Source: Candidatus Thermoflexus tengchongensis
GTDB lineage: Bacteria; Chloroflexota; Anaerolineae; Thermoflexales; Thermoflexaceae
NCBI GenBank assembly: GCA_016842085.1
Contig: JAEVEX010000037.1
Location: forward strand, 62,001-126,000
Reading direction: 5' to 3'
DNA: 64,000 nucleotides
A model generated the notes under the pieces. It searched no databases and was not told the origin of the DNA. It worked only from the letters and a program-made list of their open reading frames with translations. Both the position numbers and the translations under genes were made by a program. Below are positions 10,452-44,207 of the stretch, in pieces. Positions within the stretch are counted from its first letter, which is position 1, and every line of letters starts with the position of its first letter.

Positions 10452-11021
10452 TCAGAAAGCGCCTTCGAACAGAGCGCGCACCGGATACCGGAATCCGGGG
10501 AGGACGTCGCCGCCGTCCAGCTCGTCGGACTCGTGGAGGAGGCGGAGGGTTCCGTCGGGCTGGAAGATGGTGACCGTGCGGCGGGCGGGGTCGACGACCC
10601 AGACCTGGCGGGTTCCGGCCTCCAGCCACTGGCTGACCTTGTAGAGGAGGTCGGCGTAGCGGTCGGTGGGGGAGAGGATCTCCACGGCCAGGTCGGGGGC
10701 TCCTTCGAAGAAGCCGGTGGGGAGGCCTTCGGGGGGGAGGCGCTCGGCGCGGATGAAGGCCACGTCGGCCGCCCGCACCGTGTCCGGATCCCGCCGCAAC
10801 ACAAACCCCACCTCGCCGGTAACCAGGATCCCTGCCGGATGTTCTCGCAAATACGATCCCAGGATCCAGGCGACCCGAGCCTCCGTGTAGCCATGACTCA
10901 ATCCGGTAGGGGGCATGGGGATCAGCCTCCCGTCGACGAGCTCGTAGCGTTCTGCCTCCCCCAGGGCCAGGAGGTCTTCTGCAGTCCACAGGCGCGGACG
11001 GATTTCGACCGGTGCCGTCAT
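10452..11021 (-). CDS. Uma2-family (DUF820) PD-(D/E)XK protein, copy 1
   Basis: 189 aa. Family signs are the opening WTAEDLLALGEAERYELVDGRL, the central DVAFI and DLAVEILSPTDR strands (D, then E in VEILSP) and VWVVDPARRTVTIF, which form the PD-(D/E)XK nuclease-like core. Uma2 genes are expanded in Cyanobacteria, Chloroflexota and Deinococcota; their job is not established. It lies within the cox cluster next to a second copy (11038-11598). Its C-terminal 106 codons are almost identical to that copy at DNA level while the N-terminal third is not, see the repeat entries. Confidence 0.85.
   Translation of the reverse strand: MTAPVEIRPRLWTAEDLLALGEAERYELVDGRLIPMPPTGLSHGYTEARVAWILGSYLREHPAGILVTGEVGFVLRRDPDTVRAADVAFIRAERLPPEGLPTGFFEGAPDLAVEILSPTDRYADLLYKVSQWLEAGTRQVWVVDPARRTVTIFQPDGTLRLLHESDELDGGDVLPGFRYPVRALFEGAF
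10501..10818. repeat. Near-identical block shared by the two Uma2 genes (copy 1)
   Basis: 318 bp matching 11081-11398 in direct orientation with two mismatches seen (10617/11197 and 10799/11379). Similarity drops sharply at both edges. Confidence 0.9.
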
Positions 11022-11037
11022 CGTTACGCTCCTTCCC

Positions 11038-11598
11038 TCATCCGGCGAAGAGATCCCGGATCAAGCAGCGAAAGCCAGGAAGGACGTCGCCGCCGTCCAG
11101 CTCGTCGGACTCGTGGAGGAGGCGGAGGGTTCCGTCGGGCTGGAAGATGGTGACCGTGCGGCGGGCGGGGTCGACGACCCAGACCTGGCGGGTTCCAGCC
11201 TCCAGCCACTGGCTGACCTTGTAGAGGAGGTCGGCGTAGCGGTCGGTGGGGGAGAGGATCTCCACGGCCAGGTCGGGGGCTCCTTCGAAGAAGCCGGTGG
11301 GGAGGCCTTCGGGGGGGAGGCGCTCGGCGCGGATGAAGGCCACGTCGGCCGCCCGCACCGTGTCCGGATCCCGCCGCAGCACAAACCCCACCTCGCCGAC
11401 CACCACCCGGCCCAGCCGCCGGGGATGGACGAAAGCCCGCAGGACCGTGGCCAGGGCGAGCTCGACGTCGCCGTGAAGAAGGCCGGTGGGGGTCATAGGG
11501 ATCAGCTTCCCCTCGATGAGCTCATAGCGTTCTTCCTCCCCCAGAGCGAAAAGCTCCTCCGCGGTCCACCGGCGTTCCGCTTCCCGTGGGATGGCCAT
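11038..11598 (-). CDS. Uma2-family (DUF820) PD-(D/E)XK protein, copy 2
   Basis: 186 aa, same family and motifs as copy 1 (RWTAEELFALGEEERYELIEGKL; DLAVEILSPTDRY; VWVVDPARR). It lies 21 bp before the VWA gene end and 16 bp upstream of copy 1. The first 65 residues are clearly diverged from copy 1 (GDVELALATVLRAFVHP against GYTEARVAWILGSYLRE), whereas residues from GEVGF to DVLPGF are nearly identical. This mosaic pattern points to recent gene conversion rather than recent duplication. Function unknown; possible restriction- or transposon-related nuclease. Confidence 0.85.
   Translation of the reverse strand: MAIPREAERRWTAEELFALGEEERYELIEGKLIPMTPTGLLHGDVELALATVLRAFVHPRRLGRVVVGEVGFVLRRDPDTVRAADVAFIRAERLPPEGLPTGFFEGAPDLAVEILSPTDRYADLLYKVSQWLEAGTRQVWVVDPARRTVTIFQPDGTLRLLHESDELDGGDVLPGFRCLIRDLFAG
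11081..11398. repeat. Near-identical block shared by the two Uma2 genes (copy 2)
   Basis: Partner of 10501-10818: 318 bp, two mismatches, direct orientation, 580 bp apart. Confidence 0.9.
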
Positions 11599-40892: not shown

Positions 40893-41190
40893 AACGGTAA
40901 AACGCCCTGGGGGACGCGATCGGCAATCCCTAAGGTGGGGGGCTTTCGCCCCGACAGCCGACAGCTGGAGGCTTGACTTTGCCGCTGCGAGAGCCCATGG
41001 AACGCCGGGGGCCGGGAGGAGGGCTTCTGGGGGGCTGGTGAGGTGCCACAAGGGATGCCTGTGCCCACGGGCACGCCGCGGCCGTGGAGCGGAAAATCGG
41101 GCTGGGGGCTTTCGTCTCCAGCCCAATCCTGTGTCCAGCAGACTGGCTTTGCCTCGTTGCGCACGGCTCCGTCAGCCACTGACGCTATCG
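40893..41190. other. Intergenic region before the cassette-like element
   Basis: No gene. It includes a hairpin-rich segment (GGGGGCTTTCGCCCCGAC around 40943) and, near 41130-41190, sequence only loosely similar to the region just upstream of the second 150-bp repeat. It ends in ATCG|TTAG, the same 8-mer that closes the repeat. Confidence 0.5.
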
Positions 41191-41340
41191 TTAGCGAGCC
41201 TAAGAGGTTATATTGGCCGGAAGGAAGGCCCAAAGCCTGGCGCGGGCTTTTCGGGGTGCGGCTTCGGCGGGGCGGTCTCGCTAACCCGCGCTTTCACCGG
41301 ATAGCGCCTTCGGCGCTGCAGGTGAAGCGCAGATCGTTAG
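41191..41340 (+). repeat. 150-bp repeat A with attC-like site
   Basis: Direct repeat of 43505-43654 with the same length and six mismatches seen. Its 3' 60 nt fold like an integron attC site: CTAAC (41281-41285) pairs with GTTAG (41336-41340); an unpaired spacer follows; GCGCTTTCACC (41288-41298) pairs with GGTGAAGCGC (41321-41330) leaving one extrahelical T; GCGCC/GGCGC (41304-41308, 41312-41316) makes the tip. The octamer ATCGTTAG flanks the repeat on both sides (41187-41194, 41333-41340), as if it were itself an ORF-less unit. Confidence 0.75.
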
Positions 41341-41413
41341 TTGGGGGTACATGGTGATGTCCATACGCGGACAAATCAGGAAGGTCTAAAATTCCAGACG
41401 AAAGAAAGCACAT

Positions 41414-42559
41414 ATGATTGTTCGAACAATAAATCCAGTCCAAATTTTAGAAGCCCACCAGCATGGTATTTGGACGCTTTGTTTATCTGCTGATCACCAT
41501 CTGATTTCCGGAGGAGGGGATGGGCTGCTTAAATTATGGAAATTTGACGTTCAAACCGAGAAGCTCGTTTTGCTCTCATCAGCATCAACACCCCATACCG
41601 GAATACTCGTCGTTCAAAAGACGAAATACGGGAAATTGGTTTCAGTCGGTCATCACGGGGGGATTTGTGTTTGGAACATCGAGCATGAAAAAGGACTGCT
41701 AAGGTTACACCAAAATTTAGGCATGGAGACTGAATATTGGGAGTACAATGATCGAATTTTGGAAACTCAGACTGGTCACTTGATTACCTGGATATATCTC
41801 GGAGCACTTCCTCCTATCGTATGGGAATGGTCGAGTGAGGAAGGTTCTTACCGACTCAAACAAGAACTACCCATGAATCACGTTTCTGTTCTCGTAGAAG
41901 ACCTCTATGGTAATCTCTTCTCTGGAGATCGTGATGGGAAAATCACATGGTGGTGGAAAGACATTACCATGCAATTCTGGACTGCGGGTCAGACCTTACA
42001 AGCTCACAAAGGCGCCGTCCGTGCTATGACCTGGACAAGGGAAGGATATCTGCTTTCGGGTGGCGATGACTGCCTTATTAAATACTGGCAACCAAACATG
42101 GATTTTAAATCGCTTGTTTTGATGGATATCCTGGAGGGCCATTCGAGTCCAATTTTCCATATCATGGAAACAAAAGCGGGCGAAATCGTTTCCAACGATC
42201 ATGGAGTTCGTATTCTTGCTTTCCGATACCGACGTAAGCCCGAATTTCGGGTATGGCGTAAAAAACCGGAGGGCATTCGGTTTGTCCAGAATCAGATGGG
42301 CTTTGTACGAGGATATCTGCCCCCCGACCTTCTGATTATAGATGAGATGGAAGGGAGTCTAACTTTATGGAAGCGCCAGCAAGAAAACTATGTACGGTAT
42401 GCCATAATGAAAAATGGCCACCGGGATCTTATAGTTTGTTTTGAGGTTTTGTCAGACGGGTATTTAGCCACCGGGGGGCTGGATGGACGGCTGGTTCTTT
42501 GGGATATTCGCTCTTTCTTAGCGAATGAAATAAATGAGGTGCAGCATGAATCGTATTAA
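41414..42559 (+). CDS. WD40-repeat beta-propeller protein in cassette
   Basis: 381 aa; ATG at 41414, ribosome site weak (GAAAGAAAG). Six or seven WD-like blades: HQHGIWTLCLSADHHLISGGGDGLLKLWKF, GKLVSVGHHGGICVWNI, GNLFSGDRDGKITWWWKD, AHKGAVRAMTWTREGYLLSGGDDCLIKYW, GHSSPIFHIME, and finally LSDGYLATGGLDGRLVLWDI. No signal peptide, so cytoplasmic. Such propellers mediate protein contacts. Composition differs strongly from the rest of the window, indicating horizontal origin. It overlaps the next gene by 14 bp, so the two products are probably made together. Confidence 0.85.
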   Translation: MIVRTINPVQILEAHQHGIWTLCLSADHHLISGGGDGLLKLWKFDVQTEKLVLLSSASTPHTGILVVQKTKYGKLVSVGHHGGICVWNIEHEKGLLRLHQNLGMETEYWEYNDRILETQTGHLITWIYLGALPPIVWEWSSEEGSYRLKQELPMNHVSVLVEDLYGNLFSGDRDGKITWWWKDITMQFWTAGQTLQAHKGAVRAMTWTREGYLLSGGDDCLIKYWQPNMDFKSLVLMDILEGHSSPIFHIMETKAGEIVSNDHGVRILAFRYRRKPEFRVWRKKPEGIRFVQNQMGFVRGYLPPDLLIIDEMEGSLTLWKRQQENYVRYAIMKNGHRDLIVCFEVLSDGYLATGGLDGRLVLWDIRSFLANEINEVQHESY

Positions 42560-43373
42560 CCGTCGTGATTTTCTCAAGTGGGCAGGAGTAGCCACGGGTG
42601 GCCTGGCGATTTCTTCTGTTCCCGGGCTCCGTTCGTCAAACCTCTTGGGAGCGACGGAGGAGCCTGAGTTTAAGTTTCTGGTTACCCCTGAAGGAGTCGT
42701 GGAAGTTCTTACAAAAACAGGACTCAGTTTAGGGACATTTTCGCTGGATGCACTGTCGAAACCGAAGGTGCCCATTAGCTTACTGGATGCAGGCAAGGAG
42801 AATGTGAATAGAACGTCTGCCGATATTTCCCGTCTTGTGCTTGGGCTGCCTGAGCCATTGATTCCACTTGCCCTGCATCCGTTGACTGCTTTTCAATCCT
42901 TGGAGTCGGGTTACCATTTAGACATCCTCGTTATTCCGAACACCAAGCTCGGACAAACTATCACAGAAGTCGCCCCTAACCGGGTGGAACCTGATTGGGA
43001 TTTCAAGACCCGCATTGGTCCCTATTTCATCCGTGTTAGCATCGAGAAACACTTCCTGGGCAGTTGTATCCGGCGTGATGTTTGGCATGCGGGTGCCTTG
43101 GTCCGAGATGTTCCGTCAAACACCATGCTTTTTGATTTACATATTGCTTCTTGGTGGGAGGGATGGCGCCCTTGTTTTGCTGTCTATGAAAGCAAGACGC
43201 GCTTCTGTTGGAATACATGCCAGTATCCAACATGGGATGCAATTGTGGCTATTGTCTATGCCGCAATTGCAGCGGGAATTGTCTGGTGGTTGGCTTGGCC
43301 TGTAGCTGGTGCCATCGCAACTGGAGCGGTGGGAGCGCTCACTGTGATTCCGGGTGTGCCACCTCCTCCGTAA
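42546..43373 (+). CDS. Tat-exported protein of unknown function in cassette
   Basis: 275 aa from the ATG at 42546 (GAGGTGCAGC upstream), inside the end of the WD40 gene. The N terminus has a twin-arginine signal, NRRDFLKWAGVATGG, then a hydrophobic stretch, so it is exported folded. The middle (about 40-220) is unrecognised, with several Cys (SCIRRD; RPCF; RFCWNTCQYP). The C terminus is a hydrophobic Ala/Gly/Val/Ile-rich segment (IVAIVYAAIAAGIVWWLAW, about 232-265) ending in IPGVPPPP, either a membrane anchor or a helix-hairpin. Function unknown; coupling suggests it acts with the WD40 protein. Confidence 0.8.
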   Translation: MNRINRRDFLKWAGVATGGLAISSVPGLRSSNLLGATEEPEFKFLVTPEGVVEVLTKTGLSLGTFSLDALSKPKVPISLLDAGKENVNRTSADISRLVLGLPEPLIPLALHPLTAFQSLESGYHLDILVIPNTKLGQTITEVAPNRVEPDWDFKTRIGPYFIRVSIEKHFLGSCIRRDVWHAGALVRDVPSNTMLFDLHIASWWEGWRPCFAVYESKTRFCWNTCQYPTWDAIVAIVYAAIAAGIVWWLAWPVAGAIATGAVGALTVIPGVPPPP

Positions 43374-43504
43374 GCCTCGATACTATGCCTTTCCTTGCTT
43401 TGGAACAAGTCCTCGCCTAACCCCTCGCTGCGGCGGACTGCTCCCTTCGGCGGGCTTTGTTTCGCTATGCCTGTCTTTGGCTGCAGCAATTGAGCTCGGC
43501 ACCA

Positions 43505-43654
43505 TTAGCGAGCCCAAGAGGTTATATTGGCCGGAAGAAAGGTCCGAGGCCTGGCGCGGGCTTTTCGGGATGCGGCTTCGGCGGGGCGGTCTCGCTAACC
43601 CGCGCTTTCACCGGATAGCGCCTTCGGCGCTGCAGGTGAAGCGCAGATCGTTAG
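43505..43654 (+). repeat. 150-bp repeat B with attC-like site
   Basis: Partner of 41191-41340, offset exactly 2314 bp. The attC-like core is 43594-43655, where GCTAAC pairs with GTTAGC (6 bp) and the inner stem and extrahelical T are identical to repeat A. It lies 131 bp after the Tat-protein stop codon, as an attC site should in a cassette. Upstream it contains TTAGCGAG (43505-43512) that can pair with CTCGCTAA (43591-43598), an alternative fold. Confidence 0.75.
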
Positions 43655-43655
43655 C

Positions 43656-43989
43656 CGCAAGATGCCCGAACCTTGAAAAGGAGCTTGAACGCTGGGGCTG
43701 ATAGGCGGTATCGCCTGGCGTGGGGTTGTTGCCTGAGAAGGCCTCTTGCAGGTGGTGGACGGGATGGCCAGGGTGCCTTGCTTGGCGAGTCCACCCGCGG
43801 TTGGCCCGGGCCGGATTGCTGGCTTTGAGGGTGGTTTGCCTGGCTTAGGAGACGTGAGGCGTAGTCCGCCCGGCTGGGAAGGGGAGCTGGCGGTGCGAGG
43901 TGTCCGATGCCGGGCGGATTTCCGCTCCGTGGGGCGGGCTGGCAGGTAGGCCAGGGTCACGTGCCTGTCTCCCGCTCCCAGAGTGCTGC
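43656..43989. other. Non-coding stretch after the cassette
   Basis: GC-rich again. No gene with a ribosome site and no further GTTAG/CTAAC attC-like pair. A small hairpin AGGCGGTATCGCCT lies near 43705. It may be decayed cassette-array DNA, but I cannot show this. Confidence 0.4.
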
Positions 43990-44018
43990 TTGACAAGTTT
44001 CTGGAAGTCGCTTATGAT
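43990..44018 (+). promoter_or_regulatory. Promoter of the arginine operon leader
   Basis: Perfect -35 TTGACA (43990-43995), 17-bp spacer, -10 TATGAT (44013-44018). Predicted start near 44025. Confidence 0.85.
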
Positions 44019-44024
44019 TGATCC

Positions 44025-44207
44025 CAAACCATGGGGGATCAGGTGAGGATGTTGAACGGTATCGCCCGCTTCCCACGTATCCGTCGTCCAGAGGCCCTGC
44101 CGGGCATCGGGTCCGGCGCGGGGAGGCGGGTGATTGACCGTTAATGCCTGACGGTCACGCGGTGAGTTCCAACCCCCCGGGCTCCGATGCCCGGGGGGTT
44201 TTGTTTT
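44025..44207 (+). promoter_or_regulatory. Structured leader with attenuator upstream of argC
   Basis: About 183 nt from the predicted start to the end of an intrinsic terminator. A long rod is possible: AACGGT (44054-44059) with ACCGTT (44137-44142), CGCCCGC with GCGGGTG, and TCCC with GGGGA, enclosing a GGCCC-to-GGGTC hairpin. TGACCGT (44133-44139) can instead pair with ACGGTCA (44151-44157), which would break the rod base. The apical CCGGGCATCGG (44100-44110) is perfectly complementary to CCGATGCCCGG (44184-44194) inside the terminator, an obvious antiterminator pairing. I recognise no T-box or known riboswitch consensus. Confidence 0.65.
44173..44207 (+). terminator. Intrinsic terminator in the arg leader
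   Basis: Perfect 10-bp stem CCCCCCGGGC/GCCCGGGGGG (44173-44182, 44189-44198), 6-nt loop, tail TTTTGTTTT. It stands 250 bp before argC. Confidence 0.9.

Follow-up and report, generated by a model that had tools for sequence, protein, structure and literature searches.

Integron attC sites and a probable integrase-less cassette cluster in Candidatus Thermoflexus tengchongensis, with two copies of a gene-less cassette around a two-gene cassette

In a 64,000-nucleotide stretch of the Candidatus Thermoflexus tengchongensis genome (the window), two near-identical direct repeats flank a pair of AT-rich genes, which raises the question of whether the repeats are recombination sites (attC) of an integron, a bacterial system that captures genes, and what kind of element they delimit. 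A first-pass annotation made from the letters alone had proposed attC architecture for both, and its account of them was exact: repeat A (41191-41340) and repeat B (43505-43654) are 150 nt each, in direct orientation and 96% identical, with six mismatches that all lie within the first 66 nt. These are the only two copies in the 3.89-Mb genome, and a 22-nt stretch of the repeat body had zero exact matches in the genome and viral collections. Each repeat ends in a palindrome with the anatomy already described, namely outer arms CTAAC/GTTAG, an unpaired spacer, an inner stem (GCGCTTTCACC versus GGTGAAGCGC) with one extra base, and a GCGCC/GGCGC tip.

For a model-based assessment of the palindromes, we built two covariance models. 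The Chloroflexota model (R1) was trained on 28 attC sites, all from Chloroflexota genomes other than that of the window; its sites came from a phylum-wide search with the repeat, which returned related palindromes in those genomes, the best of which aligned over the last 60 nt, and from a structure scan of contigs, which contributed many of them. Arms were aligned, and variable tips were trimmed from the longer sites. In this alignment 84% of cells are paired, versus 30-39% with the partner slid, and 87 two-sided changes were counted against 38 expected by shuffling, a strong signal of compensatory change. The class 1 model (R2) was made solely from 13 class 1 integron attC sites of plasmid records and is independent of the repeat; its sites were taken from intergenic sequence, and the site after blaIMP-13 was excluded for its incomplete R' box. 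Both models matched at the ends of the two repeats:

41279..41342, + strand: attC A; R1 52.7 bits, E 3.6e-11; R2 15.9 bits, E 0.076; bottom-strand fold z -3.9
43593..43656, + strand: attC B; R1 55.9 bits, E 5.6e-12; R2 18.1 bits, E 0.02; bottom-strand fold z -4.1

These are the top two R1 matches in the window, with scores that are not fully independent of the repeat, some training sites having first been found by similarity to it. With R2, at E values up to 10, they are the only two places found in the 64 kb, both of them weak. Both sites align to the model over their full length, with R'' and R' cores ending in AAC and GTT, an imperfect hairpin, a spacer and L boxes, and their extrahelical bases, all in the 5' arm of the top strand, occupy the two positions seen in the attC family. 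None of 200 dinucleotide shuffles folded as well as either bottom strand, and only this part of the repeat stands out, the entire 150 nt giving z of about -1.5 and no clear excess over shuffles. In other genomes, sites of the R1 family form same-strand arrays near integron integrase genes (intI), and several of the related palindromes have TIGR02249 (integron integrase family) matches nearby; intI thus accompanies homologous arrays in relatives, where the first-pass annotation had advised looking for it. On the evidence of the two models, both repeats carry genuine integron attC recombination sites, as that annotation had supposed, and the covariance-model check that it had recommended came out positive for both using models built in this analysis. 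Class 1 attC sites share the strand asymmetry and the distance between R'' and the extrahelical bases, whereas the L boxes and spacer differ and the class 1 model scores weakly.

Comparison of the repeat edges with the expected crossover point revealed that the repeats are more than carriers of attC, as which they had been described. Both copies begin exactly at the G/TTAG crossover point, and the block between and including them divides as follows:

41191..41336, + strand: gene-less 146-bp cassette, copy A; TTAGCGAG...attC...G, beginning directly after the G of GTTAGCG
41337..43504, + strand: two-gene cassette, 2168 bp, bounded by core sites; 48% G+C against 64% in the window
43505..43650, + strand: gene-less 146-bp cassette, copy B; 96% identical to copy A, with an identical attC part (58 nt)

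Excision turns a cassette into a circle in which the R'' box comes to face the cassette's own start. In copy A the R'' flank CTCGCTAAC is the exact 9-nt complement of the cassette's own start GTTAGCGAG, a feature overlooked in the earlier reading. Across the window's + strand, 41191 and 43505 are the sole occurrences of TTAGCGAG, and its complement appears at just the two R'' boxes. R'' agrees with the start of its own cassette at 9 of 10 positions in copy A (versus 6 of 10 for the downstream R'), at 8 of 10 in copy B and at 7 of 10 in the two-gene cassette. A control array from another genome (G166) behaved in the same way, with the ten R''-end bases matching the own start at a mean of 9.6 of 10 versus 7.6 for the downstream R'; the effect was less clear in another array, L045 (7.5 versus 6.0). 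Because the 150-bp repeat starts at a core site and its R'' complements its own start, it is, as its sequence is laid out, a complete gene-less 146-bp cassette followed by the TTAG of the next. The main reservation held against the attC reading, that the R boxes depart from the usual consensus, is also resolved, since the pairing partner of R'' is its own cassette's start, in the window and in the control array alike. The span 41337-43650, previously proposed as one gene cassette, does contain a gene cassette, but it comprises the two-gene cassette 41337-43504 plus gene-less copy B.

The two genes of the larger cassette overlap slightly:

41414..42559, + strand: WD40-repeat protein gene, 381 aa; Pfam WD40 above cut-off
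42546..43373, + strand: Tat-signal protein gene, about 275 aa; TAT_signal above cut-off; overlaps the end of the WD40 gene

Searches of the cargo proteins against PHROGs and NCBIfam returned the Tat signal only. Of 84,980 species genomes scanned with the Tat protein, one yielded a relative, on CAKZJX010000044.1, a contig (G096:C44, locus L088) from an uncultured Anaerolineae bacterium; the contig also carries a TIGR02249 gene over cut-off. There, homologues of the WD40 protein (55% identity) and the Tat protein (66%) are encoded by adjacent genes divergent from the integrase gene. Because this pair is bounded by GTTAGCCGGAAAGG and by an attC with an R'' flank complementary to these 14 bases, and lies beside the integrase gene, we conclude from its boundaries that it is a cassette in an integrase-bearing array. 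The homologous unit beside intI bears out the earlier suggestion that the two genes of the window form a gene cassette. Among 400 genomes drawn from the phylum, the Tat protein occurred in three, the window's own included, and one more was found in another sample. At L089:1-2848 (G457:C9), a Tat-protein relative (38-39%) is flanked by two direct repeats of some 660 bp, 94-99% identical; R1 found no attC there, and the next gene encodes a 167-aa protein. At L131:1228-2781 (G267:C146), the neighbour that follows another relative (36%) is a protein of 154 aa, which resembles the G457 neighbour by eye. Since these neighbours look alike, the Tat protein there has a different partner than WD40.

R1 also pointed to an attC candidate before repeat B that had been missed previously, and to a much weaker one before copy A:

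43415..43510, + strand: decayed attC of the two-gene cassette; R1 22.8 bits, E 0.0015 (window); R' = ATTAGCG
41121..41196, + strand: possible attC remnant (weak); R1 with filters off 7.9 bits, E 0.62 in 4.7 kb

The first ends at the start of repeat B and has an R1 E value of 0.086 genome-wide. Its 5' arm matches attC 5' arms of this and other genomes at 26-27 of 31 positions, versus 20 for the next-best place in the window, while its fold is lost (z +1.3 versus shuffles). With R1 filters off its score was far lower than by default, which is probably due to the hit-length limits of that mode for so long a site, and the site was judged by the default R1 score and direct comparison of the arm. 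As the 5' arm is the best in the window while the fold is lost and the core reads ATTAG, we read 43415-43510 as a decayed attC belonging to the two-gene cassette. The weaker candidate folds no better than shuffles and terminates at the GTTAGCG core preceding cassette A; it is a possible attC remnant, its support being mainly its expected position.

At the level of the chromosome, all of these elements lie within one insertion:

40893..43988, + strand: lineage-specific inserted block, from the 2-hydroxyacid dehydrogenase gene (ends 40892) to the argC promoter (about 43989)

The block is absent from four congeners, where only a short variable spacer separates the dehydrogenase gene from the argC promoter and leader; the window locus is about 3 kb longer. 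Because the spacer between the genes lacks conservation, the ends of the block can be placed only approximately. Its outer parts (40893-41190 and 43651-43988) gave no clear attC, the block showed no mobile-element gene, and an Rfam scan of the block gave no family above gathering scores. Beyond the block, argC (44453) is preceded by a promoter, TTGACA-17-TATGAT at 43990-44018, and by a region (44049-44205) holding MLNGIARFPRIRRPEALPGIGSGAGRRVIDR, an ORF of 31 codons with many arginine codons, followed by a strong terminator hairpin at 44171-44200. This upstream promoter and leader region is kept in the four congeners, and by its layout it looks like an arginine attenuation leader.

In the window's own genome, R1 detected 12 attC sites at E <=0.01, several of them solitary on other contigs, and the only TIGR02249 match over cut-off lies on contig C15, where it is interrupted by an internal stop and a shifted frame and appears to lack residues in the middle. 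No intact intI was found in the assembly, and no TIGR02249 match was listed on contig C48. The broken gene on C15 is followed on the expected strand by several attC sites, with a two-gene pair among the intervening ORFs; this locus (L083:9557-13089, G000:C15) is a remnant integron in which the broken intI is followed by + strand attC sites with small ORFs. A genome-wide search for intI and further attC sites, as suggested beforehand, thus yielded a broken intI and more sites. Single attC sites occur elsewhere in the genome at L121, L122, L123, L124, L125 and L127, with L121/L122 and L125/L127 forming near-duplicate locus pairs; the site at L123 lies directly before an AbrB-like/VapC-like pair and that at L124 before a DUF433-like gene (names by eye).

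We therefore consider the block to be a CALIN, a cluster of attC sites lacking an integrase, in which a small integron cassette array is stranded in the chromosome, and we put the probability of this reading at roughly 0.94. At least two clustered attC sites with no adjoining intI define such a cluster, and the block has this arrangement; an intI and attI adjoining the array, as in a complete integron, were not found here. As in published CALINs (PMC9024848), at least two attC sites lie 2.3 kb apart on the same strand with cassettes between them and no adjoining intI; the differences are that this is a small array in a little-studied Chloroflexota genus with one of its three attC sites decayed, identified with models built here. 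Composite transposition, with short transposable repeats (MITE or IS ends) flanking a passenger, would also account for equal-length direct repeats around a foreign AT-rich two-gene unit missing from relatives. Against it, the edges of the repeat coincide with the attC crossover point, its palindrome belongs to an intI-associated family, the repeat occurs only twice in the genome, its 22-nt body stretch lacks exact matches in the collections, and the cargo elsewhere carries a different attC beside intI; we rejected this explanation as highly improbable on the crossover edges, the two copies and the palindrome family. Still less credence can be given to the repeats being ordinary terminators or structured RNA elements at gene ends. 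Both are strong GC-rich hairpins, and one lies downstream of genes, but the terminator-like sites found include neither palindrome, no Rfam family fits, and two models match attC at what are cassette boundaries; on the models, the boundary position and the terminator search, this reading was rejected too. None of the outcomes named in advance as telling against attC (no covariance match, an ordinary dispersed repeat, or the gene pair at a fixed place in relatives without repeats) was observed.

Given attC sites, the manner of arrival is a narrower matter, and published routes to a CALIN comprise off-target insertion, intI loss and rearrangement (PMC8618304). Movement of the cluster into this locus as a finished piece, by ordinary recombination or another mobile element, is a substantial though minority possibility: the genome's intI is broken and on another contig, the outer parts of the block show no clear attC, and rearrangement is one of those three routes (PMC8618304). 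Against it, no mobile-element gene was seen in the block, and the scattered single attC sites of this genome fit off-target insertion by IntI. In the CALIN reading, the array would run from the possible attC remnant through gene-less copy A and the two-gene cassette with its decayed attC to gene-less copy B. IntI would have inserted each cassette, recombining folded bottom-strand attC at G/TTAG, and we infer that the array was built by IntI in this way. With the inner attC decayed, excision would pair attC A with attC B, and an active IntI could then release 41337-43650 in a single circle of 2314 bp. Expression of the two genes may be aided by copy A. It is a speculative idea that the gene-less cassette acts as a mobile cap, with copy B, beside the decayed attC, having restored a working attC to the genes; as an equally tentative part of that idea, copy A would give the partner site or a promoter, and the fused cassette would stay mobilisable.

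For integrons in this phylum, a 2008 survey that counted nearly a third of its intI genes as pseudogenes had already reported intI in Chloroflexi (PMC2426708). Chloroflexota also figures among the phyla listed as having integrons (PMC8618304, PMC9668308), and cassettes with no gene or with two ORFs have been described before (PMC8618304, PMC11014356). The first-pass annotation had called this a phylum where integrons are poorly described, which is right in that they are thinly described but overlooks these earlier reports (PMC2426708, PMC8618304). Integrons, CALINs and gene-less cassettes being already known, the block is a well-preserved further example, from a phylum that has received little study. 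Its attC family, strand order and TIGR02249 intI are like those of chromosomal integrons in Chloroflexota (G166, G238, G325 and CAKZJX010000044.1), except that intI here survives only as a pseudogene on another contig. What is unusual is the arrangement, two copies of one gene-less cassette around a gene cassette with a decayed site. Like gene-less cassettes of Vibrio superintegrons (PMC11014356), copy A is short, has no recognisable gene and lies in sense orientation upstream of a gene cassette, whereas here two near-identical copies bracket a single gene cassette. The Vibrio cassettes drive expression, and their promoters are not reliably predicted in silico (PMC11014356); no sigma-70-like site was seen in the gene-less cassette of the window. 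Integron cassettes are thereby documented in a genus of the class Anaerolineae, and one two-gene cassette is seen in both an intI-bearing array and an integrase-less cluster of different genomes. The locus also allows a clean test of whether gene-less cassettes keep their neighbours mobile after the neighbours' own attC has decayed.

The window contains other repeats besides those of the block. Two 300-bp direct repeats, 95% identical and 580 bp apart, lie at 10466-11345, and arrays of 30-bp repeat units at 24-994 probably encode a low-complexity stretch.
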